Below, piece by piece: positions 42,697-64,000 of a stretch of 64,000 nt of DNA (positions are counted from its first letter, which is position 1; each line of letters opens with the position of its first letter). The stretch comes from Alphaproteobacteria bacterium. Lineage in GTDB: Bacteria > Pseudomonadota > Alphaproteobacteria > JANQMY01. Location of the stretch: NCBI GenBank assembly GCA_028289425.1, contig JANQPL010000001.1, forward strand, positions 124,001-188,000, in the 5' to 3' direction. The position numbers were made by a program, and so were the translations under genes. The notes below the pieces were generated by a model that was not told where the DNA came from, did not search any database, and was given only the letters and a program-made list of their open reading frames with translations.

Positions 42697-42728
42697 AGAT
42701 TTTATGTGATCAGCCCAGGAAGGTGACA

Positions 42729-44036
42729 ATGTCAGATACAGGCCGGGTTAAACCGAAGGAACAGCCGGAAGATTTCGATCTGTTGGATCCCGAGGTTCGG
42801 GAATGTCCCTATCACGCCTACCGCGTCTACCGCGAAAATTCGCCCGTCTACAAATCTCACGAAAACGGCGCCTATGTGGTGACGAGTTACGACGAACTGC
42901 GCGAAGCGCTGCGTGACCCGGAGCGGTTTTCGCGAGATACGACCGGCTATTTCGATCCGGAAATCCAGTCGGATCGATATGGTTCTTGGCAGTACAAGGA
43001 GGAAATCAAGAAGCTATTCCTCGAAGAAGGCTGGGAAGGGTGGCCACAAGCGAGCACGTTAAACAGCGAGCCGCCGCTCCACACACATTTCCGGCGTCTA
43101 GCCGACCGGTCGTTTACGGCAAGCCGGGTGAAGAAGATGGAGCCTTATGTGCAGGCCCTGGTCGCTGAACTGGTCGATACCTTTATCGATGACGGCGAGG
43201 TGGAATTCGTCAGCCAATTCGCCATCCCCCTACCCATGCATGTCATTGCGGATCGGTTGGGTCTGCCCCGCGCCGACCTACAACAAGTGAAACATTGGTC
43301 AGCGGTTCAGGCGGAAATCTTGAACGCCTATCCCCGGTCGCTCGATGAAGAGGTAGCGCTTGCCCGCGACTTGATCGCTTTTCAACACTATCTGGCGCAA
43401 AAGCTCGAAGAAAAAAAGCAAAACCCCGAAGAGGACATCATCTCTGACATGGCGGTGGCCGAAGCGATCGACGGCACTCCCCTGCCCATCAGTCTTAAAA
43501 TCTCCGTGCTCATGTCGCTGGTCATCGGCGGCAATGAGTCGACAACCAACGCTCTGTCTTCCGGCATGCTGATGCTCATGGAAAATCGCGAAATACTGGA
43601 TGCGATTATCGCCGACCGTTCGCTGCTCCCCAATTTCATTGAAGAATCGCTGAGGCTGGAGGCACCGTTTCAGACCCTCGCTCGTGCCGTTCGGCACGAC
43701 ACGCAGCTTGGCGGCGTAGAGCTGTCCAAGGGCTGTCTACTCGATCTTCGTTGGGGAGCGGCAAATCGGGATCCGAAGCATTTCGACCGGCCTGATGAAA
43801 TCGACTTGGAACGGAAGAACCCAGGGCGGCATCTAACGTTCGGGACCGCTCATCACCACTGCATCGGAGCGCCGCTGGCGCGTCAGGAGCTCATGGCTTC
43901 TTATGAGAACATGCTTGATCGCATGGAGAATATCCAACTGGCGCCCGGTAAGAACACCTTCGAGCACTACCCTCACAACGTGCTGAGGGGGTTGAAAGAA
44001 CTGCATCTGACGTTCGACAAGAAAACCGACGGCTGA
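42729..44036 (+). CDS. Cytochrome P450 (paralogue 1)
   Basis: A 435-residue soluble bacterial P450. I-helix GGNESTTNALSSG (oxygen-activation Thr), K-helix ExxR in EESLRLEAPF, and the heme loop HLTFGTAHHHCIGAPLAR with the cysteine ligand are intact. It needs two electrons from a ferredoxin system, none of which is adjacent. The closest relative I can see is the P450 at 57304, which shares long stretches such as FIDDGEVEFV and PLPMHVI. Hydroxylation of a hydrophobic substrate is expected. The ATG at 42729 follows AGGAAGG; a GTG two codons before is possible. The promoter carries the palindrome at 42680. It is followed 61 bp later by the NmrA-like gene. Confidence 0.95.
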   Translation: MSDTGRVKPKEQPEDFDLLDPEVRECPYHAYRVYRENSPVYKSHENGAYVVTSYDELREALRDPERFSRDTTGYFDPEIQSDRYGSWQYKEEIKKLFLEEGWEGWPQASTLNSEPPLHTHFRRLADRSFTASRVKKMEPYVQALVAELVDTFIDDGEVEFVSQFAIPLPMHVIADRLGLPRADLQQVKHWSAVQAEILNAYPRSLDEEVALARDLIAFQHYLAQKLEEKKQNPEEDIISDMAVAEAIDGTPLPISLKISVLMSLVIGGNESTTNALSSGMLMLMENREILDAIIADRSLLPNFIEESLRLEAPFQTLARAVRHDTQLGGVELSKGCLLDLRWGAANRDPKHFDRPDEIDLERKNPGRHLTFGTAHHHCIGAPLARQELMASYENMLDRMENIQLAPGKNTFEHYPHNVLRGLKELHLTFDKKTDG

Positions 44037-45092: not shown

Positions 45093-45208
45093 ATTGTCTT
45101 ATTTGCCGATTAAGAGGCGCGCCAAATGGGCAATCGGGCATTCAAATGGCCCCGGACAGAGAGCGCGCGCCTAAGAAATTGAAACGGCCAACAGAAAGGC
45201 ATCCCAAG

Positions 45209-46354
45209 ATGAATAGTCTGACCCCTGTGGCGATCACTGGTGTGGGAGAATCGGAATATGGCCGCGTCCTCGAACCACCCCTATTCGACTTGATCGCAAA
45301 TGCCGCGCGCAAAGCGATCGAGGACGCCGGACTTTCCGCCGCCGACATTGACGGCTTTGCGTCAACCCCTGGTGTTCCGCCGGCGGATGAATTGGCAGCA
45401 GCGCTTGGCGTGAAGGAACGGCGGTTCACGGCACAAGCCTCTGTCGCGGGGGCCGGCACGGTGGGGGCGGCTCAATTGGCCCAGTTGGCGATCAGCGCAG
45501 GCCTCGCCAAGCACGTTCTTGTTTATTATGGGATCAAAACATCGCGTCCAGGCGGCGCCTATGCATTTCATGCCGCCGATCCGCACAAAGCCGATCTCGA
45601 AATGCCGCTTGGGTTTTATGGGCAGCCGCTTTATTTCGCGGCTCTCGCACAGCGCTATCGCCACGAATACGGTCTGACGGACGAACAATTGGGCGAAGTG
45701 CCCGTTGCCGCGCGCGCTTGGGCACGCATGACCCCCGGTTCCCAGAAGCAGGATCCCTTAACGCTGGACGACTATCTTGAGAATCCGGTAATCGCAACGC
45801 CCTTCAGGAAGCTTGACTGCTGCCTGAATTCGGACGGTGCCGCCGCCTATGTTGTCAGTAGCCTGGAAGCGGCGCGGGACCTGCCGAATCCGCCCGCGGT
45901 CGTCGCCGGTGTCGGCTTCGGAGCGCTTCCTGTCACCTTGTCGGAAATGTTCACCCAAAACCCCGACCTCATACAATTCGCCGGTCACCTCTCGTCCAAG
46001 CGCGCATATGAACAAGCCGGCCTCGGACCCAAAGACGTCGACTTTGCCGAAATCTACGACTGCTTCACGATCTCTGTCCTCCTCCAGATGGAAGAACTGG
46101 GTCTGTGCGGACGCGGCGAAGCAGCAAGCTTCGTCGAAGGGGGCCGCATCGGCCCGGGCGGCGACATGCCGGTGAACACCCATGGCGGACACATGTCGAA
46201 CGCCTATATTCCGGGTACGAATCATGTGGTGGAAGCCGTTCGACAAATACGGGGCGTGCGCGGCGAAGCACAGGTGAAGGATGCCGAAGTAGGCGTCATT
46301 GCAGGCCTGGGCGGCAACGAGCATGCGACAATGGTTCTGACGGTGGATGGGTAA
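45209..46354 (+). CDS. Thiolase-fold protein without catalytic cysteines, Ltp2-type aldolase-like
   Basis: A 381-residue SCP2-thiolase homologue. At the place of the nucleophilic Cys (Cys82 in the thiolase at 30491) it has Ala80 (ASVAGAGTVG); the His of HDCF is Tyr283 (IYDCFTI); the GHPxGxTG block is NTHGGHMSNAY; and the C-terminal Cys is absent (GLGGNEH). It therefore cannot run the Claisen mechanism. Ltp2-type proteins with the same losses act with a DUF35 partner as retro-aldolases that remove the last side-chain carbons of steroids, and a DUF35 gene follows after seven bases. ATG 45209 gives the family start; the frame is open 21 codons upstream. Aldolytic C-C cleavage of a beta-hydroxyacyl-CoA is the best hypothesis. 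Confidence 0.88.
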   Translation: MNSLTPVAITGVGESEYGRVLEPPLFDLIANAARKAIEDAGLSAADIDGFASTPGVPPADELAAALGVKERRFTAQASVAGAGTVGAAQLAQLAISAGLAKHVLVYYGIKTSRPGGAYAFHAADPHKADLEMPLGFYGQPLYFAALAQRYRHEYGLTDEQLGEVPVAARAWARMTPGSQKQDPLTLDDYLENPVIATPFRKLDCCLNSDGAAAYVVSSLEAARDLPNPPAVVAGVGFGALPVTLSEMFTQNPDLIQFAGHLSSKRAYEQAGLGPKDVDFAEIYDCFTISVLLQMEELGLCGRGEAASFVEGGRIGPGGDMPVNTHGGHMSNAYIPGTNHVVEAVRQIRGVRGEAQVKDAEVGVIAGLGGNEHATMVLTVDG

Positions 46355-46360
46355 CTGATC

Positions 46361-46777
46361 ATGGGGCTACCCTTCTTCGAACCGCGGCTTGATACGGATC
46401 TGATGCGACCCTATTGGGATGCGATCCGCAACAATGATCTGAAACTTCCCGCCTGTTCCGTATGCGGCGCATGGCTATGGTATCCGCCGGAATCGCTGCC
46501 TTGCCACCCGAACGGTCATCTGGAATGGAGACCTGTTCCCAAAACGGGAACGGTGTACACTTTCACCACCGTTGAACGATGCCTGCTGCCGGGCGACCAC
46601 AAGGACGAAACACCATACACCAATGCATTGGTGGAACTCGACGACGTGCCGGGCGTCCGGCTTGTCACGATCCTGGTCAATCTGAACGGCACACCGCCTA
46701 AGATCGGTATGCGGGTCCGCTACGCACCGACAAAAGTCAACGATCAGACGTTGCCCACATTCGAACCCGAGACCTGA
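46361..46777 (+). CDS. DUF35 OB-fold/zinc-ribbon protein (ChsH2 C-terminal-like partner)
   Basis: A 138-residue protein: helix FFEPRLDTDLMRPYWDAI, zinc ribbon with Cys32, Cys35 and Cys48 (CSVCGAWLW, PCHPNGH; the fourth ligand seems to be His rather than Cys) and an OB-fold with GTVYTFTTVER. DUF35 proteins bind the acyl-CoA and complement thiolase-fold partners; ChsH2-Ltp2 is the studied case. It follows the thiolase-fold gene by seven bases. The His substitution in the ribbon is a small oddity. Confidence 0.9.
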   Translation: MGLPFFEPRLDTDLMRPYWDAIRNNDLKLPACSVCGAWLWYPPESLPCHPNGHLEWRPVPKTGTVYTFTTVERCLLPGDHKDETPYTNALVELDDVPGVRLVTILVNLNGTPPKIGMRVRYAPTKVNDQTLPTFEPET

Positions 46778-50892: not shown

Positions 50893-51040
50893 CTTCTAGT
50901 TTCCAAACAAGTTGCACTCTTGCTTCACTAAGGTGAATGCAAACGATCCCCTCGGTGTGCTTGACAGTCGGGCATTTGCCGCCTTAGTGATGAACGCGGG
51001 TGACGGCTCTATTGTGGGTTGCGATGGGTCTTCTCCGATG

Positions 51041-51865
51041 ATGTCGCGGTGCGGAGAGGGGGCCGATTTGCAAAAAGACAGTCAAGGCAAAGTGCGGAAG
51101 AATGCACTCCGCGCGCCGGCGGATCCGCCGGCGAGCCGGACGACACATCGCTTACTCAAAGCCTCTGAGCTTGTCGCCCGCGAGATCGTGGCGGATATCG
51201 CCAACCGAGAATTACAACCCGACGATACTTTGCCGCCCGAGGCCAAGATGCTGCAGCAATACGGTGTCGGGCGCGCTACCCTGCGCGAAGCTATCCGCCT
51301 TCTCGAATCACAGGGCCTCATCAGTATCAAGCAGGGCCCACGCGGCGGACCCGTGGTGGGAACAGCCAGTGGGGAGAACCTGGCCCGGGTCACGACTTTA
51401 TTTTATGGTTTAGCTGGGGCTACCTATAACGATCTCACTGAAGCGACGTTGCTCTTCGAACCGCTCGCGGCCGAGATGGCGGCGCGCGCAACAAAAACTC
51501 AAGCAGAAAAATCGTATCTTTCGGAAATTGCCAGTTTCGGCATCGACCTTTCCGAGGACGGCCGGTCGAAGGAAATCAAGCTGCGCGACTTCCATCGATT
51601 TGTCATTGAGCTTTCCCGCAATCCGATCGTCGGCTTAATCTGCGAGTCCTTGTCCCAAATCTGTACTGAACATCTACTGAACAATACGGATATTACGCCG
51701 TTTCAAGATACAGCCATGAAGGATCACAAGGCGATAGCGGCCGCCATACTTGCCGGACGCGCCGCTAGCGCGAGGAAACTCGCCTACGACCATAATCTGA
51801 GGCTGGTCGAGCACTGCCGAAACAACGTACCCGGCCTGCTTGACCAATTGGTGGAGTGGCGCTGA
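51041..51865 (+). CDS. GntR-family regulator, FadR/FCD subfamily
   Basis: About 274 residues: winged helix-turn-helix (LVAREIVADIANRELQPDD, QYGVGRATLREAIRLLESQG) and an FCD ligand domain with the metal/acid-binding residues DFHRFVIEL and MKDHKAIAAAILAGR followed by AYDHNLR. FCD regulators respond to carboxylates or acyl-CoAs. The start is unsure: ATG 51041 lacks a ribosome site, while TTG 51068 has GGAGAGGGGG just before it and would remove nine residues; the open frame reaches back to 50912. It lies in the middle of the island and is the only regulator gene there, so it is the leading candidate for the TGCGTATnnTTAT and other AT-rich sites. Confidence 0.88.
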   Translation: MSRCGEGADLQKDSQGKVRKNALRAPADPPASRTTHRLLKASELVAREIVADIANRELQPDDTLPPEAKMLQQYGVGRATLREAIRLLESQGLISIKQGPRGGPVVGTASGENLARVTTLFYGLAGATYNDLTEATLLFEPLAAEMAARATKTQAEKSYLSEIASFGIDLSEDGRSKEIKLRDFHRFVIELSRNPIVGLICESLSQICTEHLLNNTDITPFQDTAMKDHKAIAAAILAGRAASARKLAYDHNLRLVEHCRNNVPGLLDQLVEWR

Positions 51866-52299: not shown

Positions 52300-54597
52300 A
52301 TGTCCAATCGTGCATTCGAAAGACAAAACAAATTCGGAAACCTTTGGGGCAGAAGGCCGGGCCGCACACGCGGTAGGTTCTGGACACTATCAAAATCACA
52401 CGCGTCAGCATTGGCACTCGCCGTCGGAGCGATACCAATGTTCGCTATCGATGTCGCCATCGCATCAATGGATGAGATTATCGTAACCGCGACCCGGCGC
52501 GAGGAGTCCATTCAAGACGTTCCCATCGCGGTGAGCGCGTTTGACGGCGACTTCATCGAAAACGCTCGGATACAAACTTTTGATGACGTACTTTCGCTCA
52601 TTCCGGGCGCCGTTTTCTTTGACATCACCGGGTCGAACGGTTCTTTCCCATCTATGCGCGGTAGTGCGTTTACAGACGATTCGCCGGCGGCCGACTTGCC
52701 AGTCGCCTTTTTCATTGACGACGTCTATGCGGGCTCGGGATCGGCATTCAACACAGACTTCTATGATATTGAACAGGTCGCCGTGTTGCGCGGGCCGCAA
52801 GGAACGACTTTCGGCCGAAATGTGGTAGGCGGTGCCATTCAGATCACGACGCGGAAACCGGAGCTGGGTGAACGCAGCGCTGAGCTTACCGTCGGCGGCC
52901 GCAACCGGCCCGGCTTCGAAGCACGCGGGTTTGTGAACCAGCCGATTAATGATCGGCTGGCCGCCCGGGTATCGTTCCAGCAGCGGCGCGTGGATGGCCA
53001 CACATTCAACGAAACCACCGGCAATGATGTCGGCGAGATCGATGTCTGGAGCGTACGCGCCCAAGCACTTTATCAAGCATCGAGTGCGTTGGATGTTTTG
53101 GTCTCGGGCAGCTATTCCCGCGACACTTCCAAGGGACTGCCGAGGGATCTCATCATCCGTGGTGCTCAACCCTCTCTACTCCCGGTCGGACCGACCGGAC
53201 TCGCCCTCAACCCGGATCCGCGCGTCGTCAATAACAACGAAGACGGCTTTACGGACCGGTATACTTGGGCAGGCCAGATTCGCCTGGATTGGAACACCTC
53301 TTGGGGCAATCTTGTATCGATCACCGCCGGACGCGGATTTGAAGGCGGCTCGGCTGAAGACGTGGCGGCAGGTCCCCTGCCGGAACTTCTCGGCAAGCTT
53401 GACTTCCAAGACGAGGCCCAATTCACGCAGGAAGTACGTCTCGTGTCGCCCGGCGATGGACGAGCGATCGACTATGTGTTCGGTGTCTTCTTCTTGAAAG
53501 CCTCGGCCCAGCGGACGGAAAATAATCCGTTTATTCCCATCCCGGGCACGGTTCTTGCGTCGTTGACGCCACCGATTGTCGGTTCCACGCACCAGCAAAT
53601 AGATACCCTCAGTGTTGCGCCGTTCGGTGAATTGGTATGGAACGCAACCGACTGGCTTGCCTTGCGGGCGGGTATTCGATTTACGTATGAAGACAAGGAA
53701 GGCGAGATCGAACACTTCAACGATCCCAATCCCTTCACGGGTCCTGTCTTCACGGTGCCAATTTCCGAAAGTTGGACCGCCACGACGCCACGCTTCGGTT
53801 TGGAGATTTCGCCAACGGACGACATCTTGCTGTACGGCACCATCTCTAAGGGCTTCAAGAGCGGCGGTTGGTCATTGAACAACGCTACACCGGCAACCGC
53901 CCAACAACCGTTCGACCCCGAAGAAGTATGGAGCTATGAAGTGGGTGTTCGGACCGAATGGTTCGACAATCGGATAACCTTTAACGGCACAGCGTTCTTA
54001 GCCGAGACCAATGATCTGCAGATTCGACAGTGGGACGGTGTCGCCACCTTCCTCACCACGAATGCGGCCAAAGTGGAAGCTAAGGGCATAGAGCTGGAGT
54101 TGTTCGCTCAGCCGACGGACGAATTCGGTTTTGGTGTCGTCTACGGCTATACGGACTCCCGCTTCGACAGCTTCCCGAATTGCGCCGTCGGCGTCGACTG
54201 CGATGGCAACCGTGTTCCGTACGTGCCTTTGCACACGGCAACCGTATATGGTCAGTACGCGACGCCACTTCCAAACTTGGACGCAACTTTGTCGTTCCGG
54301 GCGGAGTATAACTTTAACAGTGAGTATCGGCTGAACGACCTGAACAATGTCGCGACACGCAATCAGACAAAGCGGGATGCCTACGTCAACGCGTTCATGA
54401 CTTATGAACCGGACCATGGCGATTGGAGCCTGTCCTTGTGGGGTCGCAATATTCTGGATGACGAAGCGATCTCGGGATCCAGCAACTTCTCCATCTTCCA
54501 CTATTCCGCCGCTGAAATCGCTGCAGGCAATCAGGCTTTCCGGGCCGTTTATGATACGCCGAGACAATGGGGCGGTTCAGTGAGTTTCCGCTTCTAA
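52300..54597 (+). CDS. TonB-dependent outer-membrane receptor
   Basis: A 765-residue receptor with a long charged N-terminus before the signal hydrophobic stretch (ASALALAVGAIPMFAIDVAI), TonB box MDEIIVTATRREE, plug domain with VLRGPQGTTFGRNVVGGAI, barrel strands such as YGTISKGFKSGGW, and C-terminal GGSVSFRF. GGGAGGGA lies about eight bases before the ATG. The plug residues differ clearly from the receptors at 1 and 24965, so a different ligand form is likely. The long structured leader and a promoter overlapping the island element suggest tight control. It is followed by two hairpins and then an MFS carrier, which gives an outer- plus inner-membrane import pair. Confidence 0.95.
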   Translation: MSNRAFERQNKFGNLWGRRPGRTRGRFWTLSKSHASALALAVGAIPMFAIDVAIASMDEIIVTATRREESIQDVPIAVSAFDGDFIENARIQTFDDVLSLIPGAVFFDITGSNGSFPSMRGSAFTDDSPAADLPVAFFIDDVYAGSGSAFNTDFYDIEQVAVLRGPQGTTFGRNVVGGAIQITTRKPELGERSAELTVGGRNRPGFEARGFVNQPINDRLAARVSFQQRRVDGHTFNETTGNDVGEIDVWSVRAQALYQASSALDVLVSGSYSRDTSKGLPRDLIIRGAQPSLLPVGPTGLALNPDPRVVNNNEDGFTDRYTWAGQIRLDWNTSWGNLVSITAGRGFEGGSAEDVAAGPLPELLGKLDFQDEAQFTQEVRLVSPGDGRAIDYVFGVFFLKASAQRTENNPFIPIPGTVLASLTPPIVGSTHQQIDTLSVAPFGELVWNATDWLALRAGIRFTYEDKEGEIEHFNDPNPFTGPVFTVPISESWTATTPRFGLEISPTDDILLYGTISKGFKSGGWSLNNATPATAQQPFDPEEVWSYEVGVRTEWFDNRITFNGTAFLAETNDLQIRQWDGVATFLTTNAAKVEAKGIELELFAQPTDEFGFGVVYGYTDSRFDSFPNCAVGVDCDGNRVPYVPLHTATVYGQYATPLPNLDATLSFRAEYNFNSEYRLNDLNNVATRNQTKRDAYVNAFMTYEPDHGDWSLSLWGRNILDDEAISGSSNFSIFHYSAAEIAAGNQAFRAVYDTPRQWGGSVSFRF

Positions 54598-54659: not shown

Positions 54660-54692
54660 GGGCCGCACAAAGACCTTAAGAATGTGCGGCCC
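54660..54692 (+). terminator. Second hairpin, possible attenuator before the MFS gene
   Basis: GGGCCGCACA (54660-54669) pairs perfectly with TGTGCGGCCC (54683-54692) around a 13-base loop. It follows the first hairpin by nine bases and precedes the MFS start by 61, so the two may together lower read-through from the receptor into the carrier gene. Confidence 0.55.
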
Positions 54693-54753
54693 AATTTCAC
54701 GAGACCGTACCTGTCCTTCGGCGGACAGATTAAATGATCAGGTATTGCGACCG

Positions 54754-56178
54754 ATGAAGGCCCCCGCGCCCGATGACATCACCCCCAGCTATCGATGGTA
54801 TGTCCTTGGCATATTGACGGTCGTCTACATATTCAATCTGGTTGATCGTAGTATCCTGGCAATACTGCAAGAGCCGATCAAAGAAGAATTGGGGCTTTCC
54901 GATACGCAATTGGGAGCGTTGACCGGGCTCGCTTTCGGACTCTTTTATTCAACATTGGCGGTTCCGATCGCGATTCTTGCGGACCGCACGGTTCGAAAGA
55001 CAGTCGTGGCCGGCGCTCTTGCCCTGTGGAGTTTGGCGACGGCCTTGTGCGGTGTCGCGACCAACTTTCTCACTTTGCTGATCTTCCGCATAGGTGTTGG
55101 CGTTGGCGAGGCGGGCGGCGTGCCACCGTCAGTCTCAATTCTCTCCGATTATTTTCCGCGCGCAAAACGCGCGACAGCCATGGCGATTTATGGCATCGGG
55201 CCGCCCCTCGGCCTCGCATTCGGCATGTTCGCAGGGGGGTGGCTGAATGAAACTTTAGGATGGCGGGTTGCTTTTTTTCTCATCGGGATTGCCGGCGTGA
55301 TTTTGGCCCCTATCGTGTATCTAACCGTCAAAGAGTTGCCCCGCGGGTACGCCGACCGGCTGGAGGGCGCGCCGGTGCCAGAAGAAGCGCCCTCACCCAG
55401 TTTTCGTCAGGCGGTGGACACCCTTTGGGCCCTAAGATCATTCCGCCATCTCTTATGGGCCGGTGCAACACACGCACTCGCCACCTACTCGGTGATGAGT
55501 TGGAATCCATCGTTTTACATCCGCGTGCACGAACTCGGCACTGCGGAAGCGGGCATGTATCTCGCATTACTTGTGGGCGGTGCCGGCATCATCGGAACTT
55601 TCCTTGGAGGTGTGATCTCCGACCGATTGGGAAATGCCGATGTGCGCTGGTACATGTGGATCCCGGGCATTGCCATGGCGGCGTTCGTGCCTGCGGCATT
55701 CCTACAGTACTGGGTCGCAGATCCATATGTGTCCTTTGCCGTGGCCTTCATTCCCTACTTGCTCTCGCCACTTTATATCGGCCCCTATCTTGCGACCGCG
55801 CAGTCTTTGGCCAATCCGGAAATCCGCTCGCTCACACAAGCAATCGTGCTCATGGTCTACAACATAATCGGCCTTTCCTTAGGGCCCATGATGACCGGCG
55901 CCTTAAGCGACACATTCACCAACAACTATGGATGGGGTGCTGACGGATTGCGTTATGCGCTCATGATCATGATCTTGTTCAATCTTTGGTCTGCTGTTCA
56001 TTTCTATTGGGGCTCCAAATATCTGCATGACGACCTGAATCGGGACCGCAGCGGCGAAATTGCCAAAGCACCAACGCCGGCCGCCGCTACCACCGCCAAA
56101 CCAAGTTCGCTTCAAGCCGAAAGCTTGAAAAAGGAAACTCAAGATGACAGCAGACTTAAAGATCGGGATCTGTCTTAG
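54754..56178 (+). CDS. MFS transporter, spinster-like family
   Basis: A 474-residue carrier: VYIFNLVDRSILAILQEPIK in helix 1, AILADRTVRKTVVAGAL between helices 2 and 3 and GVGVGEAGGVPPSVSILSDY in helix 4, the same family marks as the carrier at 34315. The C-terminal 40 residues are hydrophilic and Ala/Thr/Lys-rich, overlapping the next gene. ATG 54754 is chosen to match the family; the ribosome site is weak. It probably imports the compound delivered by the TonB receptor upstream or exports a product. Its 3' end overlaps the LLM start by 35 bp, indicating co-translation. Confidence 0.93.
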   Translation: MKAPAPDDITPSYRWYVLGILTVVYIFNLVDRSILAILQEPIKEELGLSDTQLGALTGLAFGLFYSTLAVPIAILADRTVRKTVVAGALALWSLATALCGVATNFLTLLIFRIGVGVGEAGGVPPSVSILSDYFPRAKRATAMAIYGIGPPLGLAFGMFAGGWLNETLGWRVAFFLIGIAGVILAPIVYLTVKELPRGYADRLEGAPVPEEAPSPSFRQAVDTLWALRSFRHLLWAGATHALATYSVMSWNPSFYIRVHELGTAEAGMYLALLVGGAGIIGTFLGGVISDRLGNADVRWYMWIPGIAMAAFVPAAFLQYWVADPYVSFAVAFIPYLLSPLYIGPYLATAQSLANPEIRSLTQAIVLMVYNIIGLSLGPMMTGALSDTFTNNYGWGADGLRYALMIMILFNLWSAVHFYWGSKYLHDDLNRDRSGEIAKAPTPAAATTAKPSSLQAESLKKETQDDSRLKDRDLS

Positions 56179-57199
56179 ATTCAAGAATCCCGAACCTTGG
56201 CATCGCGATTGGCGGGACGTCTATCAAGCGCATCTCGACTACGGCGCGCGGGCCGAAGCATTGGGGTTCGACGGGATTTGGGTACCCGAACATCACTGTG
56301 TGCCATCGGGATACAATCCCGCCCCGCTTGTGGCGCTCACCGCCTTGTCCCAGGTGACGTCCAAAATACAACTGGGCACCCAGCCCCTGCTGATCCCGCT
56401 CCACAATCCAATCCTGGCCGCCGAGGAGGCGGCCGTCCTGGACGTATTGTCCGGCGGGCGCCTCATAATAGGCGTGGGTGCCGGCTACCGGCCGGGAGAC
56501 TTTCGCGCGCTCGGAAAAGACCGAAGTGAGCGCGGCGGCCGCATGGACGAAGTGCTGCCGCTTTTCATAAAGGCGCTGGCCGCGCGAGAGCCCTTCGATT
56601 TTTCCGGACGCTTTTATTCCGTGAGCGGCGTGCAACTAAGCCCGCCTCCGGTGCAGACACCCCATCCTGAAATTCAGTATACGGCACGCTCAGCAGTAGC
56701 GGCCAAACGGGCGGCACGGCTGGGCCTTTCGCTCAATGTGCTAGCCCAACCCAACGTCCCTAAACTGGGCCCACTCGTCGCCGAGACAGCTGCCACGGCA
56801 GGTCACGACCCGGCAAAGATCGGCGTGTCGCTTTTACGCGGCGGATTTCTAGGGAAGAACCGGGAACAGGCGGTCGAAGCTGTGCGTCCCTATCATGAAT
56901 GGGACGTGCAAGAATATGACGAATGGCAAGCCGAGGCGCCGGACCCCGACGACGTGCGCTTGCTTGAAGAACGCAAGGCAAAAGCAAAATCGCGACAAAG
57001 CGAACCGCCTCCCGGCCATTTTACACCCGAGGAGTGGATATCCGCGGTCGCGTCCGATGCGGCCGCCATTAAGGCCGTCGGACTGAAGCCCGGCTGGGTT
57101 AACGTCACCTTGTGGCCGCCCGGCATGCCGCTTGCCCAGGCGTTGGATTGTCTAGAGCAATTCGCCGAAGAGGTTTTGCCGCACCTTCGCACGGCATAA
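56144..57199 (+). CDS. Luciferase-like (LLM) oxidoreductase
   Basis: A 351-residue LLM protein: GFDGIWVPEHHCVPSGYNPA, QLGTQPLLIPLHNPILAAEE, LSGGRLIIGVGAGYRPGDF, and a C-terminal extension beyond the usual barrel with EEWISAVASDAAAIKA. The pattern is close to F420/FMN-dependent monooxygenases of the TIGR03619/alkane-sulfonate group. The ATG lies within the MFS gene, seven bases after AAGGAA, so its translation depends on the carrier's. The reaction could be a Baeyer-Villiger-like or hydroxylating step, not decidable here. The next gene is a P450. Confidence 0.9.
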   Translation: MTADLKIGICLRFKNPEPWHRDWRDVYQAHLDYGARAEALGFDGIWVPEHHCVPSGYNPAPLVALTALSQVTSKIQLGTQPLLIPLHNPILAAEEAAVLDVLSGGRLIIGVGAGYRPGDFRALGKDRSERGGRMDEVLPLFIKALAAREPFDFSGRFYSVSGVQLSPPPVQTPHPEIQYTARSAVAAKRAARLGLSLNVLAQPNVPKLGPLVAETAATAGHDPAKIGVSLLRGGFLGKNREQAVEAVRPYHEWDVQEYDEWQAEAPDPDDVRLLEERKAKAKSRQSEPPPGHFTPEEWISAVASDAAAIKAVGLKPGWVNVTLWPPGMPLAQALDCLEQFAEEVLPHLRTA

Positions 57200-57267: not shown

Positions 57268-57303
57268 AGTTAGTACTGACGCATTTTGAAGCGGGGCCGC
57301 GAT

Positions 57304-58605
57304 ATGAAACACGGCGAAGAACAGAAGAAAGCGAATCCCACACCGGACGACATCAACCTTCTCGATCCGGCGGTTCAAGCTTGCCCCTACGCGGCATATT
57401 CGACGCTTCGCGAACAGGCCCCCGTGCGGCTTGCCCCCGAAACGGGCATGTTTGTGCTTACCAAATATGACGACGTGAAAGTTGCGTTCCAAGACCATGA
57501 AAGGTTCTCGAAAGACACGTCAGGGACCTTTGACCCTGAAGTGACGCCTTCGGGCTATGGGGGATGGAAGAACGCCGAAGCAGTTCGGAAGGTCTTTCAA
57601 GAAGAAGGATGGGAAGCCTGGCCCCAAGTCAATTCCCTGGGCAGTGAGCCCCCTATTCATGCCAAGTTCCGCAAGTTGATCGACCCTTCCTTCACGGCGG
57701 GCCGCATCAAGAAAATGGCTCCCTATATCGAAAAACTGATTCACGAACTCATTGACGAGTTCATTGATGACGGCGAGGTGGAATTCGTCGGCCAGTTTTG
57801 CGTGCCGCTGCCCATGCATGTGATCTCGGACCGCCTGGGGCTGCCGAAGGAAGATCTGCCAAAGCTGAAGGCGTGGTCGGGTGATCAGATCACCAGCATC
57901 AGCCGCCTTTTGTCGCCGGATGAGGAAGTCGACTGTGCCCGCCGGCTGGTGGCGTTTCAGCATTATCTCGTGGACCAGCTCGAGAAAAAGCGCAAGGAGC
58001 CGGCGGATGATATTCTGTCGGATCTTGCCCGCGTCGAGATTGGCGGGCCGTCAGGCGTCCGACTGGAAGATCTGATCTCGGTCATTTTCTCCGTTCATGT
58101 AGGCGGAAATGAATCGACCACGAATGCCTTGTCGTCCGGCTTGCTGCTTCTGCTCAAACATCCGGAAGTGATGAAGCGCATCCAAGATGACCGCGCCCTG
58201 ATCAGAAACTTCATCGAGGAAGACTTACGCCTGGAGTCACCTTTTCAAGCTTTTGCGCGACTGGTGCGCAAAGATTCCGAATTGCGGGGCGTTGCACTCC
58301 CGAAAGAATCGCTTCTGGACCTGCGGATGGGGGCCGCCAACCGGGACCCTGACGAGTTCGACAGACCGGATGAGATCAATCTGCAACGAAAGAATCCAGG
58401 CCGACACCTGGCGTTCGGCGTAGGCCATCACTATTGCGTCGGGGCGCCCTTGGCCCGTTTGGAAATGACGCTGGCATTCAACATTCTGTTTGACAGGTTG
58501 GCAAACATTCGCCTCACGCCCGGAAAGAACAAGCTTGATTACGTTCCGCACTATTTGGCGAGAGGTTTGAAGGAGCTGCATCTCACCTTCGACAAGGTGT
58601 CCTAG
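57304..58605 (+). CDS. Cytochrome P450 (paralogue 2)
   Basis: A 433-residue P450 with I-helix GGNESTTNALSSG, ExxR in EEDLRLESPF and heme loop HLAFGVGHHYCVGAPLAR. It is an evident paralogue of the enzyme at 42729, with the same lengths, the same EEGWEAWPQ/EEGWEGWPQ insertion near residue 95 and nearly identical helices. Two paralogous P450s in one island suggest successive oxidations or regio-variants on related substrates. ATG 57304 is chosen as the family start; an upstream TTG at 57286 is possible. It is followed nine bases later by the CoA-transferase gene, so they form an operon. Confidence 0.95.
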   Translation: MKHGEEQKKANPTPDDINLLDPAVQACPYAAYSTLREQAPVRLAPETGMFVLTKYDDVKVAFQDHERFSKDTSGTFDPEVTPSGYGGWKNAEAVRKVFQEEGWEAWPQVNSLGSEPPIHAKFRKLIDPSFTAGRIKKMAPYIEKLIHELIDEFIDDGEVEFVGQFCVPLPMHVISDRLGLPKEDLPKLKAWSGDQITSISRLLSPDEEVDCARRLVAFQHYLVDQLEKKRKEPADDILSDLARVEIGGPSGVRLEDLISVIFSVHVGGNESTTNALSSGLLLLLKHPEVMKRIQDDRALIRNFIEEDLRLESPFQAFARLVRKDSELRGVALPKESLLDLRMGAANRDPDEFDRPDEINLQRKNPGRHLAFGVGHHYCVGAPLARLEMTLAFNILFDRLANIRLTPGKNKLDYVPHYLARGLKELHLTFDKVS

Positions 58606-58614
58606 GAATTTCTG

Positions 58615-60936
58615 ATGAGGCAGAGAAAGTCGGGACCTTTACGGGGACTACGGGTGGTCAGCCTAGCCGAGAAGATGACGGCCAAATTGGTCGGCATGAT
58701 GTTGGCTGACAATGGCGCCACGGTCGTCGAAGTGGAAAGTCCCGGCAATGTGCGCGAACCCAATTGGGAAATCACCGAAGAAACATGGAGGCGGGGCAAG
58801 AACATCGTGCCGCTCGAAGGTCCAACGCAGCTTGCCCATTTGATTGGCGCCGCTGACGTGTTTGTGACCGACCTGGCGGCTCAAGCTCTTCAAGATCTTG
58901 ATGCCTCACCGCAAGTGCTTGCGGATCGCTGCAACAAGCTTGTGGTTTTGCAGATCAGCGGTTATGGCGCGTCGTCCGCGCGGCGCGACGCGCCATGGTC
59001 GGAAACATTGGTCATGGCCGAAATGGGGTTCCCCTGGCTGCAAGAAGGCCCACGCGACGGTCCGCGCATGCCAAGTTTTCAAGCCGGCTCCTATGCGGCC
59101 GCCTTTAACGGCATGTCGGGTCTTCTTGCAGCCCTTCATATCCGACGGGAAACCGGTAACGGCCAAATCATCGATACCTCGATTCTCGATGGTTTGACCG
59201 CCCAGCAACCCATGGGTTGGTATTGGAACGAGCGTCATCGGACACCCGACACTCCCATCGATATCGCCGGCGGCGGCATGGGCCGACTGGTTCTGGCGGC
59301 CTATCGCTGTCAAGATGATGAATGGGTCCACATTCATACCGGCGCGAAGGGCGCCTTCTCGCGTTTGATGGCACTTGCCGGCCTGGATGAGCAGATTCCT
59401 CCGCTGCCGATCACTGGCCAATCGGAAATCGGCCAACCCATCGAAAAATGGCAGCTGGAACTTATTCACGAAACGTTGCCGAAGCTCTTTGCCACCAAAC
59501 CCCGGCAGGCGTGGATCAAGATCCTACGCCGCAACGAAATCTCTGCCATGCCGGACCTTTTACCGGGGGAGTGTTTCGTCGATGAGCAGGCACTTGAAAA
59601 CCAGCTAAGCGCCCTAACCACATTGTCCAGCGGCGAAAGCGTGCGGGTCGCGGGCGCCGCTCTCAAGTTCTCCGAAACGCCGGCAGTAATGGGGTTTATT
59701 CCGGCGCAGCTGACAACGACGGAAGACGCAATCGACGAATTGCTCAAACACGCAAAAGAACCGGCCAGTTCAAAACGCAAGACGACGCCAAAGTATCCCT
59801 TGGCCGGTTTGCGGGTTGTGGATTTCGGGATCTATTTCGCAGGACCCTACGCGTCGCGTCTGCTTGCCGATCTAGGCGCGGATGTGATCAAGCTCGAAAA
59901 CCTTAATGGCTGTCCTATGCGCGCCATTTCGCAGGGCCGCTATTTCAACGCCGCCAATCATCACAAACGAACCATTGCCGTCGATTTAAAGCAGCCTCAA
60001 GCGCGCGACATCATTGCCCGGCTGGTGGCACAGTCCGACGTGGTCCATCATAATCTGCGGCCCGGCGTAGCAGAGACGTTAGGGATGGGGTATGCGGATC
60101 TTCAGGAAATCAACCCCTCACTTATCTATTGCCATTCTTCCGCCTTCGGATCGCTTGGGCCTTATAGGTATTTGCCGGGCTTTGAACCCTTATCGTCGGC
60201 CGTCACCGGGCTTCTCATGCGTCACGAAGGATGCCGCGATACCGGACCCTATGCCGCGATCGGCAGCATGGACCCCGGCAACGGTCTATTGGGCGCGGCA
60301 GGCATTCTTATGGCCCTGTATCACCGGGATAGAACCGGCGAAGGGCAACTGGTGGAATGCCCTCAAATGGGATCGGCGATCATGCATCTCGCCGACACGG
60401 TCATTCGTGAGGACGGCACGATACTCGATCCTTGCCGGGTCGATCGGGACCAGTACGGATTTGGCTGGTGGAAGCGCCTGTACCAATGTTCCGACGGCTG
60501 GATTGTCTTGGACGCGTGGTGCAAGGAAGCACGTTCCGCTTTGCTCCGCATGGCCGATGCTGACGAAGGGAACGCGCTCGACCGCCTGGGAAGCTGGGCA
60601 TTGGGGCAAAGTGTCGACGATGCCCTCGCTACTCTGAAGGAATTGTATGTGCCTGCAGGACGGGTGGGGCCACCATTCAGCAGCGATCGATTCTTCTTCG
60701 ATGAAGAAAACGTCCGTCAGAAGCGGGTGATTGAGTTTGCCGATCACCCCAAATGGGGACGCTATCGAGATCTTGGGCTTTTCTGGCGTTTCTCGCAGAC
60801 ACCTCTCCGAACGGCCGAGGACGGCCACTATGCGCCGGAGATCGGCCGGCATACTGCCGACATTCTCGGGGAACTCGGCTTCGACGAAGACCGCATCGCC
60901 GCGTGGTCGAAGCGCAAGATCGTGCGGGTGGCTTGA
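58615..60936 (+). CDS. Double-length family III CoA-transferase (CaiB/BaiF fusion)
   Basis: A 773-residue protein made of two complete CaiB/BaiF units, residues about 8-375 and 395-770, joined by a Lys/Ser-rich linker (EPASSKRKTTPK). Family III enzymes swap CoA between a donor thioester and a free acid through an Asp nucleophile. The N-terminal unit keeps it: Asp192 in IIDTSILDGLTA. The aligned position of the C-terminal unit is Gly586 (VECPQMGSAIM), so that half looks inactive and may bind substrate or maintain the interlocked fold, as family III dimers are intertwined. It probably activates the P450 product or the imported acid as CoA ester. AGGAA lies six bases before the ATG. Confidence 0.93.
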   Translation: MRQRKSGPLRGLRVVSLAEKMTAKLVGMMLADNGATVVEVESPGNVREPNWEITEETWRRGKNIVPLEGPTQLAHLIGAADVFVTDLAAQALQDLDASPQVLADRCNKLVVLQISGYGASSARRDAPWSETLVMAEMGFPWLQEGPRDGPRMPSFQAGSYAAAFNGMSGLLAALHIRRETGNGQIIDTSILDGLTAQQPMGWYWNERHRTPDTPIDIAGGGMGRLVLAAYRCQDDEWVHIHTGAKGAFSRLMALAGLDEQIPPLPITGQSEIGQPIEKWQLELIHETLPKLFATKPRQAWIKILRRNEISAMPDLLPGECFVDEQALENQLSALTTLSSGESVRVAGAALKFSETPAVMGFIPAQLTTTEDAIDELLKHAKEPASSKRKTTPKYPLAGLRVVDFGIYFAGPYASRLLADLGADVIKLENLNGCPMRAISQGRYFNAANHHKRTIAVDLKQPQARDIIARLVAQSDVVHHNLRPGVAETLGMGYADLQEINPSLIYCHSSAFGSLGPYRYLPGFEPLSSAVTGLLMRHEGCRDTGPYAAIGSMDPGNGLLGAAGILMALYHRDRTGEGQLVECPQMGSAIMHLADTVIREDGTILDPCRVDRDQYGFGWWKRLYQCSDGWIVLDAWCKEARSALLRMADADEGNALDRLGSWALGQSVDDALATLKELYVPAGRVGPPFSSDRFFFDEENVRQKRVIEFADHPKWGRYRDLGLFWRFSQTPLRTAEDGHYAPEIGRHTADILGELGFDEDRIAAWSKRKIVRVA

Positions 60937-60947
60937 TGGGAGGAGCC

Positions 60948-61214
60948 ATGAACACCGACGCGCCTGACATTGGTGCTTGGCTTTTCATCCTCGGCACCGC
61001 ATTGCTGTTTGTTGGCGCCTTGGCATTTCGCATCAACGGAATGCCGCGTCGATTGCGGCCGGGGCCGCGGAAGTCGACAGGCCCGACGGCCCTATCCATA
61101 GACGAACGGGGATTACGCTGGCTCGACCAATTTTCGTTCATGGTACTGACGATCCTCGTGATCGGGATGGCCTTGCTGCTTGCATCCCTGTGGCGCTGGG
61201 CCGGCGGCCCATGA
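60948..61214 (+). CDS. Small membrane protein of unknown function
   Basis: An 88-residue protein with two hydrophobic helices (IGAWLFILGTALLFVGALAF and SFMVLTILVIGMALLLASLW) separated by a basic, Pro-rich loop (RRLRPGPRKSTGP). ATG 60948 follows GGGAGG; an ATG at 60936 overlapping the CoA-transferase stop is an alternative. It is placed between that gene and a MAPEG gene, 16 bp before the latter, so it is probably a membrane partner of the MAPEG protein. I do not recognise a family. Confidence 0.7.
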   Translation: MNTDAPDIGAWLFILGTALLFVGALAFRINGMPRRLRPGPRKSTGPTALSIDERGLRWLDQFSFMVLTILVIGMALLLASLWRWAGGP

Positions 61215-61230
61215 GAGCCAGAGGCCCCCG

Positions 61231-61629
61231 ATGACGATTGGATCCACATTTCCGGTCACTTTCTTTTACGGTTCGCTGCTGGGGCTGATGCTGGTCTTCA
61301 TTTCAATTGAAGTCTTGCGGTATCGGGTGCGCGCCGTCGACCTGGGTGAAGACATCGCCCAGCGTATGCCGCGCGTCCAAGGCAACTTCATAGAATATGT
61401 CCCGCTGGCACTTATCCTCTTGGGGTTGTTGGAAGAAACCGGCGCCCCTGCCGCGGTTCTCCACGGACTCGGGATCACACTGCTCGTCGCACGGGTCATG
61501 CACGCCTACGGGCTTGGCTATCTAGGCTCGGCGAACTATCCGCGAACGGTTGGCACGCTTCTCACCTTTGTGGTGCTCGCGGCATTGAGCGTAGCAGGTC
61601 TCTACACGTCGGCGCAGGTCCTGCTTTGA
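61231..61629 (+). CDS. MAPEG family membrane protein
   Basis: A 132-residue protein with four membrane helices and the MAPEG signature RVQGNFIEYVPLALILLGLLEE, followed by VARVMHAYGLGYLG. Human relatives conjugate glutathione to, or reduce, lipophilic electrophiles and lipid hydroperoxides; bacterial members are glutathione-transferase-like. Near P450 and LLM oxygenases it may detoxify reactive epoxides or enones. AGAGG lies six bases before the ATG. It closes the P450-CoA-transferase-small protein-MAPEG series. Confidence 0.9.
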   Translation: MTIGSTFPVTFFYGSLLGLMLVFISIEVLRYRVRAVDLGEDIAQRMPRVQGNFIEYVPLALILLGLLEETGAPAAVLHGLGITLLVARVMHAYGLGYLGSANYPRTVGTLLTFVVLAALSVAGLYTSAQVLL

Positions 61630-61697: not shown

Positions 61698-62465
61698 ATG
61701 GGTCGGGTTGACGGCAAAGTCGCCATTGTAACGGGCGGTGCAGTGGGCCTTGGGCGCGCAGACGCGGTGTTGTTAGCGCAAGAAGGTGCACATGTGGTGG
61801 TGACTGACGTGGACACACAACAGGGATCTGCGGTTGCCGAAGAGATCGGCGGGTCCGCGTTTTTCCTGCACCATGACGTTACCAATGAAGCAACCTGGAT
61901 CGAGCTCATCGACACAGTCATGAACCGCCTGGGCCGGCTCGATATTTTGGTGAACAATGCTGGGATCGTTGTGCCGGAAAATCCCGAGACCACCACCCTC
62001 GACCAATTCAGGCAGGTGTGCGCCGTGAGCGTCGAGGGCACATTCTTGGGCTGCAAATATGCCATTCCAGCCATGAAAAAGTCCGACGGCGGATCGATTA
62101 TCAACATGTCTTCCGTGGGCGCCATCAATCCGCAGCCCGACGTGGCCGCTTATGCAGCGGCAAAAGGGGCCGTTCGCTCCTATACGCGGGCGGTTGCCAT
62201 CCACTGCGCCCAAAACGGTCTCAACATCCGGTGCAACTCCGTTGCTCCGTCTTCGATGGCAACGCCGATGGTCGCGGAGATTCAGAAGCAACTCGTTTCC
62301 AAGGGGCGGGTGGGTCCCAAACGTTCCGGCATGGGGGAACTCGGAGATCCCAACGATGTGGCCCATGCAGTGCTTTACTTGGCGTCGGACGAGTCAAGGC
62401 TGGTGAGCGGCGCAGAGATCGTGATCGACCATACAGTGACCGTCACTCAAGGGCTCGTACCCTAG
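61698..62465 (+). CDS. Short-chain dehydrogenase/reductase, hydroxysteroid-dehydrogenase-like
   Basis: A 255-residue SDR: KVAIVTGGAVGLGRADAVLL, VVTDVDTQQGSA (Asp for NAD specificity), DILVNNAGIVVPE, NMSSVGAINPQPDVAAY and YAAAKGAVRSYTRA. These strings resemble 3-beta/20-beta/7-alpha hydroxysteroid dehydrogenases and cyclopentanol dehydrogenase. CAGGAGGA precedes the ATG. It may oxidise a ring hydroxyl after the P450 step. It precedes the LLM gene by 22 bp; both probably share a transcript with the cyclase gene. Confidence 0.92.
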   Translation: MGRVDGKVAIVTGGAVGLGRADAVLLAQEGAHVVVTDVDTQQGSAVAEEIGGSAFFLHHDVTNEATWIELIDTVMNRLGRLDILVNNAGIVVPENPETTTLDQFRQVCAVSVEGTFLGCKYAIPAMKKSDGGSIINMSSVGAINPQPDVAAYAAAKGAVRSYTRAVAIHCAQNGLNIRCNSVAPSSMATPMVAEIQKQLVSKGRVGPKRSGMGELGDPNDVAHAVLYLASDESRLVSGAEIVIDHTVTVTQGLVP

Positions 62466-62487: not shown

Positions 62488-63348
62488 ATGAAGTATGGAA
62501 TGGCGATTACGCTAACGATGGGGGGCAGTCCGGAAGATATCCTCACCTTGGCGCGAGCCATCGAAGAGCGGGGGTTTCATTCTCTTTACGTGCCCGAACA
62601 TGTCATCACTTTCGATGATATCCAGTCACCTTTTCCGTACACGGAAACAGGGGAAATCCCTGGCGGACAGATTATCAGTGCCATGGATCCGCTCATGGTC
62701 TTGGGATGGCTGGCAGGGCAGACAAAGACCATCCGCTTGACCACGAGTGTTTGCATTATACCTCAACGACATCCGGTTTACACAGCCCGCCACGCCGCGG
62801 ATGTCGACATACTTTCGGGGGGGCGACTCGATTTCGGCGTAGGAATCGGCTGGCTTAAGGAAGAATTCGACGCGCTGCACGTTCCCTTTAATGGTCGCGG
62901 CGCCCGCACCGTCGACTACCTGCACGTCATCAAGGCGCTCTGGTCGGAAGGGGTTTCGGAACATCACGGAGAATACTATGACTTGCCGGCCTGCGTGCAA
63001 ACCCCGAAACCGATTCAGCGTCCGGGACCGCCTATCCTAATGGGAGGGAACTCGGAAACTGCCATGCGCCGGACGGCGCAAATTGCTGATGGTTGGTATC
63101 CATTTCGCCTTTCTGTCGCGGAAGTGTCTGAAAAACTCTCCATACTGAACGATTATCTGCGGGAAGAAGGACGCTCACCGAAGAATTTTGAAATCCGTCT
63201 TGGCGCCCCAATGAAACAGATCGACCCGGGGCTTGCAGACCAATACGAGAATGCCGGCGTTCACCAACTGATCCTGCGGCCGCGCGGCCGCACCATGGAC
63301 GACCAACTAGCCTGGCTCGATGAGGCGGCGAAACTTGCATTCGATTAA
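62488..63348 (+). CDS. Luciferase-like (LLM) oxidoreductase
   Basis: A 286-residue LLM barrel protein of the TIGR03619 type: GFHSLYVPEHVITFDDIQSP, RLTTSVCIIPQRHPVYTARH, LSGGRLDFGVGIGWLKEEFD and PILMGGNSETAMRRTA. It shares the fold but little detail with the LLM proteins at 48013 and 56144. CAAGGAGAA lies before the ATG. Its last 29 bases overlap the start of the cyclase gene, a sign of translational coupling and hence of a shared job. Cofactor (FMN or F420) unknown. Confidence 0.92.
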   Translation: MKYGMAITLTMGGSPEDILTLARAIEERGFHSLYVPEHVITFDDIQSPFPYTETGEIPGGQIISAMDPLMVLGWLAGQTKTIRLTTSVCIIPQRHPVYTARHAADVDILSGGRLDFGVGIGWLKEEFDALHVPFNGRGARTVDYLHVIKALWSEGVSEHHGEYYDLPACVQTPKPIQRPGPPILMGGNSETAMRRTAQIADGWYPFRLSVAEVSEKLSILNDYLREEGRSPKNFEIRLGAPMKQIDPGLADQYENAGVHQLILRPRGRTMDDQLAWLDEAAKLAFD

Positions 63349-64000
63349 CCCAAACACCTCACTGAAAACTGAAGTTTCACGAGCGCTCGACAGGTCGCTG
63401 GAATGGGCCGCATCGCGCCAGGCCGACGGTGGATGGTGGGTCGGCCAATTTGAGTCGAATGCCAGCATTGATGCCGAGTGGATTACTGCACTTCACATTA
63501 TGAACCTCTCAGATCACCCAATCATCGAGGGGCTTGTCCACTCACTCGTTGAGCGTCAGCGGCCGGATGGCTCCTGGGACACACATTCCGGCGCGCCGAG
63601 CGGAGATATCAGCACGACGGTGGAAGTCCATTTGGCCCTGCGGATCTCGGGCATGCCCGCCACATCAAAAGTGCTGGAGAAGAGTCGGGATTGGATTCTC
63701 AAACATGGGGGTCTTCGCGAAGTTCGCGTATTTACCCGTTATTGGCTGGCCATGGTTGGTGAATGGCCATGGCGGCATACGCCCAATCTTCCGCCGGAGA
63801 TTATCTGGCTCCCCAAGTGGCTTCCCTTTAACATCTATCATTTCGCCGCATGGGCGCGGGCAACCCTACTGCCCCTCATGGTGCTTAGCGCCAATCGGCC
63901 GGTCTGGACGTGCGGTGGACGTGCGCAGCTCGACGAATTGTTCCCGGGCGGACGGCACGCATTCGACTATTCATTGCCTAAGGCCGGCCCGAAAAGTATT
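63320..64000 (+). CDS. Squalene-hopene cyclase family protein (N-terminal part, runs off window)
   Basis: The frame opens at ATG 63320 inside the LLM gene and is open to the window end (227 codons, roughly one third of a normal cyclase of 630-720 residues). Residues 18-45 have RALDRSLEWAASRQADGGWW and ESNASIDAEW; then come the QW-type repeat ERQRPDGSWDT, GDISTTVEVHLALRISG and, from about residue 120, GGLREVRVFTRYWLAMVGEW and PWRHTPNLPPEIIWLPKWLP, NIYHFAAWARATLLPLMVL. These are characteristic for class II triterpene cyclases that turn squalene into hopene or related polycycles at the membrane. The catalytic DxDD motif would be beyond the edge. Coupled to an LLM and an SDR gene rather than to hopanoid genes, it could work on a different isoprenoid. 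Confidence 0.92.
   Translation, partial: MRRRNLHSINPNTSLKTEVSRALDRSLEWAASRQADGGWWVGQFESNASIDAEWITALHIMNLSDHPIIEGLVHSLVERQRPDGSWDTHSGAPSGDISTTVEVHLALRISGMPATSKVLEKSRDWILKHGGLREVRVFTRYWLAMVGEWPWRHTPNLPPEIIWLPKWLPFNIYHFAAWARATLLPLMVLSANRPVWTCGGRAQLDELFPGGRHAFDYSLPKAGPKSI

Follow-up and report, generated by a model that had tools for sequence, protein, structure and literature searches.

A second, divergent squalene-hopene cyclase-type gene at the end of a catabolic-type gene run in a probably exchanged alphaproteobacterial island

Introduction

Squalene-hopene cyclases (SHCs) are normally taken as markers of hopanoid synthesis. For the enzyme of Alicyclobacillus acidocaldarius (AaSHC), the A306W exchange, combinations including L36V, and changes of I261, G600 and L607 are reported to turn the protein toward shorter terpenes (PMC11165016), and variant 215G2, used on geranylgeraniol, has I432T among its three changes (PMC12282579). 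Two SHC copies are present in some Acidobacteria (PMC5462960). The other described systems that the present locus recalls are steroid side-chain degradation clusters, and for the Ltp2-type aldolase the roles of a YDCF motif and of Tyr344 have been described (PMC12329534).

Here we analyse a window of 64,000 nucleotides, by which we mean the whole stretch of DNA, corresponding to positions 124001-188000 of contig C16 of an alphaproteobacterial genome (G000). Its last open reading frame, 63320-64000 on the forward strand, has no stop up to the window end; the original prediction had read it as the N-terminus of a class II triterpene cyclase lying behind an oxidative, catabolic-looking set of genes. 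The complete gene product is called the C16 cyclase in the following, and the other copy in the same genome the C19 SHC.

Gene content of the island

The features of the window that bear on the cyclase are as follows.

35851-64000, no strand: in-window part of a probably exchanged block, 92-95% identity to the sister species
42723-44036, forward: cytochrome P450; nearest solved structures a reconstructed CYP125 ancestor, CYP150A6 and CYP142
45146-46774, forward: thiolase-like protein with a DUF35/ChsH2-like OB protein; the two resemble Ltp2-ChsH2, the steroid side-chain aldolase of 6OK1
50912-51865, forward: GntR/FCD regulator
52300-54597, forward: TonB-dependent receptor, possible first gene of a co-directional run
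54682-56178, forward: MFS transporter
56144-57199, forward: second LLM-class oxidoreductase
57286-58605, forward: cytochrome P450; nearest solved structures CYP150A6 and CYP107A1
58615-60936, forward: fused double CoA-transferase family III (CaiB-like)
61180-61629, forward: MAPEG-family small membrane protein
61698-62465, forward: SDR; nearest solved relative the 3beta/17beta-hydroxysteroid dehydrogenase 1HXH
62488-63348, forward: LLM-class (luciferase-like) oxidoreductase; TIGR03619 244.9 bits, cut-off 166.9; overlaps the cyclase start
63320-64000, forward: N-terminal 227 codons of a second squalene-hopene-type class II cyclase (profile match, motif, predicted fold)

The cyclase is the last of nine genes in a co-directional run (52300-65347) that comprises the TonB receptor, the MFS transporter, an LLM protein, a P450, the fused double CoA-transferase, the MAPEG protein, the SDR, the other LLM protein and the cyclase itself. 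Profile matches bore out the predicted identities of the SDR, MAPEG, double CoA-transferase, P450 and LLM genes upstream of the cyclase. Between the two species compared below, the MAPEG gene (61180-61629) has a dN/dS of about 0.56, which is much looser than for most other genes of the operon.

Further upstream, the thiolase-like protein of 45146-46774 carries the YDCF motif and the equivalent of Tyr344, and the pair that it forms with the DUF35 protein probably works as a retro-aldolase, not as a thiolase. By inspection only, further thiolase-like/DUF35 pairs were seen at L152:4484-6120 and at window-equivalent 93274-94853, near the right end. Judged from these similarities, the CYP125/142-like P450, the Ltp2/ChsH2-DUF35-like proteins, the CoA-transferase and the HSD-like SDR would represent enzyme types typical of steroid or isoprenoid side-chain degradation. 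Genes of the KstD, Ksh and Hsa types for steroid ring degradation were not recognised among the genes examined.

The cyclase gene and its protein

On the genome contig, the reading frame continues beyond the window without internal stop to a protein of 675 amino acids (window-equivalent 63320-65347; L003:3320-5347), and the frame is intact in the sister species, too. The predicted 29-bp overlap with the LLM gene of 62488-63348 holds for a start at ATG 63320. A TTG in the same frame at 63335, with GAGG in front of it, could also serve as start codon and would shorten the overlap to 14 bp. In the sister species, the LLM gene next to the cyclase (L045:9168-10004, corresponding to 62488-63348 here) has a frameshift close to the 3' end, caused by an insertion of 1 bp, which weakens the idea of an obligate partnership between LLM protein and cyclase.

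The assignment of the frame to the class II triterpene cyclases is confirmed by a match to Pfam SQHop_cyclase_N (E=1.4e-68), and the QW-type repeat and the NIYHFAAWARATLLPL motif had both been read correctly. The full protein scores 610 bits against the squalene-hopene cyclase model TIGR01507 (cut-off 431) and 484 bits against TIGR01787 (cut-off 322.7), and it stays far under the cut-offs of the oxidosqualene cyclase and tetrahymanol synthase models (TIGR03463, 189 vs 851 bits; TIGR04277, 182 vs 500 bits). The DxDD motif and the C-terminal QW repeats, which the original prediction proposed to look for past position 64000, are present: DVDD stands at residues 391-394 within DVDDTAV (391-397; D391-V-D393-D394-T-A-V), and seven Q..GxW repeats at residues 34, 80, 266, 431, 500, 548 and 607 spread over both domains. 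The His partner of DxDD is H472, corresponding to AaSHC H451. In the alignment, AaSHC W169, D313, F365, D374/D376/D377, F434, D447, H451, W489, F601 and F605 are retained, and Y609 and Y612 (Aa numbering) are retained by motif.

An AlphaFold2 model based on a 33-sequence alignment reached a pLDDT of 87.1 and a pTM of 0.89, with pLDDT below 50 only at residues 1-10 and 626-644. In Foldseek searches the best solved structures were 3SQC, 1SQC and 2SQC (target-normalised TM 0.94-0.95), and the predicted fold is the SHC double alpha-barrel, with a TM of 0.95 to 2SQC.

Hopanoid genes and SHC loci elsewhere

The original prediction stated that squalene-synthesis genes are absent. This is right for the window and for contig C16 as a whole, where no gene of the squalene-synthase family (SQS_PSY) was found; the hpnCDE genes that the original prediction proposed to look for beyond position 64000 are not on this contig, and no hpn operon adjoins the cyclase. 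It does not hold for the genome, which carries an hpn cluster on contig C9 with HpnA-like, HpnB, HpnC, HpnD, HpnE, HpnG-like, HpnN and HpnM; the scores of HpnB, C, D, E, M and N exceed the respective TIGR cut-offs, and those of A and G lie slightly under them. The argument that the cyclase cannot be hopanoid-related for want of squalene genes is thereby ruled out. Since the C9 cluster has no SHC gene, the other SHC of the genome, on contig C19 (L005:16221-18302), is presumably HpnF. By its sequence it is the ordinary SHC of this genome, about 70% identical to its orthologues vs 49% to the C16 cyclase. With hpnCDE and an ordinary SHC elsewhere in the genome, the C16 cyclase is a second copy and squalene should be available in the cell.

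SHC genes are present in 106 of the 385 sampled genomes of the class, and genomes with two SHCs were found elsewhere, too (G613, G677, G629 and G490). The setting of the C16 cyclase had been called unusual, and a survey of 73 other SHC loci, with flanks of mostly +/-1.5 kb, agrees: an hpn gene flanks the SHC gene in 58, and neighbours of the types in this operon occur in none. Loci of clade A, the AaSHC-like subclade, have neither hpn nor operon-type neighbours in their flanks. Because ordinary copies of this subclade are likewise unlinked, the lack of hpn linkage in the C16 cyclase does not argue for a new function, and this line of reasoning was ruled out.

Two side observations concern the genome at large. 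On contig C13 (L043:3201-12379), crtE, crtI/D-type, crtC and crtB-like genes, named partly by eye, adjoin bchO- and bchD-like genes, a crt/bch-like cluster that may point to aerobic anoxygenic phototrophy in this organism. A REP/BIME-like element of about 120 bp (L171, about 5382-5512) has about 40 matches over many contigs, often in both orientations.

Probable exchange of the island between two species

The DNA at C16:159851-229036 (window-equivalent 35851-105036) forms a block of 69 kb or more that matches contigs C431, C85 and C192 in the genome of a congeneric sister species (G001) at 92-95% identity; about 6.4 kb of the block, between C85 and C192, were not found in that genome. Outside the block, identity between the two genomes is about 73-83% in the DNA sampled, with mostly 74-78% in the hpn region, 83% for the C19 SHC and 78% for its 3.8-kb locus; dS is 0.10-0.31 within the block vs about 1.2 for the C19 SHC. 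In the sister species, the block adjoins on its right side DNA that is 73-79% identical to contig C15 of our genome, on the one unbroken contig C192, and in our genome the DNA after the block has no counterpart in the sister genome. In view of the high identity of the block relative to the remaining DNA and of its different chromosomal site in the sister species, a recent exchange of the island between these species, with insertion at different sites, is probable. Contamination of the sister assembly (G001 is 10% contaminated) by a closer relative was considered and argued against: it is less likely because one and the same contig, C192, crosses from 92% identity into the 73-79% DNA, mis-assembly being possible. 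No tRNA was found at the island edges and no integrase was recognised among the ORFs at the right edge; at the left edge the sister contig C431 ends.

Divergence from the ordinary SHC

The C16 cyclase is 49% identical to the C19 SHC and 47-51% identical over the C19 SHC and the SHCs of three other alphaproteobacterial families, to whose single SHCs the C19 SHC is 61-71% identical. In trees, where the original prediction had wanted the full protein placed, it falls within the AaSHC-like subclade on a long stem of 1.1-1.45 changes per column. The sister grouping of C16 cyclase and C19 SHC received an AU p of 0.28, so that a recent duplication of C19 is neither supported nor rejected. Among the proteobacterial SHCs, we observed two deep types, a small AaSHC-like one with R127, Q262, A306, F437 and H451 and the main one with N127, F/Y262, P306, H437 and R451 (AaSHC positions); the His partner of DxDD is therefore an Arg in 65 of the 74 aligned sequences.

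At about 125 near-invariant SHC columns, the C16 cyclase differs at 12, including L36F, Y95H, G259C, I432T and P443H, and the C19 SHC at one. Further differences are A306V, L607T and F486L, the last at a position where most of the subclade has Trp, and the cavity replacements L36F, A306V, I432T, F486L and L607T are found in the C16 cyclase of both species. Although the cavity-lining residues are less conserved than in the C19 SHC, a concentration of changes in the active site is ruled out: the C16 cyclase departs from the subclade consensus at 13 of 46 cavity positions vs 108 of 384 in the whole protein (odds ratio 1.0). At the same cavity positions, chosen in part from what is generally known of AaSHC, the C19 SHC departs at none and the distant SHC L046 at 10. 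Of the replacements, I432T alone is identical to a published engineered substitution. R613S, which we take to be an engineered AaSHC change, was dropped as a natural counterpart, with Ser at the equivalent position in 16 of 77 (motif search).

Comparison with the sister species gives the C16 cyclase a dN/dS of 0.127 (674 codons) and thus shows purifying selection; the C19 SHC has a dN/dS of 0.03, with dS near saturation.

Alternative explanations and proposed mechanism

We put the chance at about one half that the C16 cyclase, which is complete, is an active SHC-type isozyme serving the island, with squalene as the favoured and a shorter isoprenoid as a possible substrate. In this reading the gene is a second, fast-evolving paralogue beside the ordinary hopanoid cyclase and closes the nine-gene run of a probably exchanged island. 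What the data show directly is an unbroken reading frame, the active-site residues, the predicted fold, purifying selection, the setting in operon and island, and squalene genes elsewhere in the genome. A redundant hopene cyclase would instead make hopene or diplopterol like the C19 copy, either as an island-induced hopanoid booster on encounter with hydrophobic substrates or as a passenger without a role in the pathway; this is possible, though we lean against it. Every catalytic residue is retained, the TIGR01507 equivalog is passed, second SHC copies are known from other genomes and the cavity changes are not enriched over background, but the long stem, the 12 departures at otherwise near-invariant columns vs one in C19, and the finding of the C16 type only together with catabolic genes speak against this reading. 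Loss of function in a cyclase gene merely carried into the island would fit the accelerated evolution and the frameshifted LLM neighbour in the sister species; with an intact gene in both genomes, the low dN/dS and an intact predicted fold, such decay is very improbable.

The original prediction had proposed that the island may make a decorated triterpenoid or that the cyclase may have been recruited to another isoprenoid. Recruitment of the cyclase to a shorter or oxidised isoprenoid (C15-C20, acid or CoA ester), taken up by the island and converted into a cyclic intermediate for P450-, SDR- and CoA-dependent degradation, appears unlikely, even though the operon with its TonB receptor, MFS transporter, P450, CoA-transferase, SDR and LLM genes, and the Ltp2/DUF35-like retro-aldolase and CYP125/142-like P450 of the island, would suit it. 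Positions 36, 306, 432 and 607, at which engineering shifts AaSHC to farnesol or geranylgeraniol (PMC11165016, PMC12282579), are replaced; however, L36F, A306V and L607T differ from the published substitutions, I432T being the exception, the C16 cyclase lacks the partner changes M132R and A224V of AaSHC, and our literature search found no earlier case of an SHC taking part in a degradative pathway or in terpene catabolism.

For the isozyme reading, we infer activity, substrate, product and a role in the island pathway. Asp393 of D391-V-D393-D394 (AaSHC Asp376), together with His472 (AaSHC His451), would deliver a proton to the terminal double bond of a linear isoprenoid folded beforehand, after which a cation cascade would close the rings until deprotonation or hydration ends it. 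Squalene from the genome's own hpnCDE would be the likeliest substrate, and the product may be other than plain hopene, since several residues of the cavity differ. In the most far-reaching reading, a horizontally exchanged degradative island would carry its own class II cyclase to put a linear isoprenoid into rings for breakdown or remodelling, so that cyclisation would serve catabolism rather than membrane hopanoids, which we consider unlikely. The link between the cyclase and the island chemistry comes from the gene order in two genomes of one genus, which hardly count as independent cases because the block they have in common was probably exchanged recently.

Significance and comparison with known systems

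A divergent yet constrained second SHC in an exchanged catabolic island would offer a natural test case for another SHC substrate or product. For terpene biocatalysis, the C16 cyclase may be of use as a protein that naturally has I432T and changes at 36, 306 and 607. Moreover, hopanoid capacity should not be inferred from shc genes alone.

The island contains predicted counterparts of the enzyme types of steroid side-chain degradation clusters (Ltp2/ChsH2-DUF35, CYP125/142, HSD, CoA activation), and differs from them in containing a cyclase and in having no recognised KstD/Ksh/Hsa-type genes among the genes examined. With the ordinary C19 SHC and its orthologues (families f40, f92 and f183) the C16 cyclase shares the AaSHC-like subclade and an additional segment in the C-terminal part, between AaSHC P602 and F605, whereas the orthologues keep the cavity strictly and the stem of the C16 cyclase is several times longer. 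The A. acidocaldarius SHC (1SQC/2SQC/1GSZ) is 41% identical to it and has the same predicted fold, DxDD-His pair, QW-type repeats and conserved aromatic cavity residues; unlike that enzyme, the C16 cyclase is a second genome copy, unlinked to hpn genes, with several cavity residues replaced, and it ends a catabolic run.
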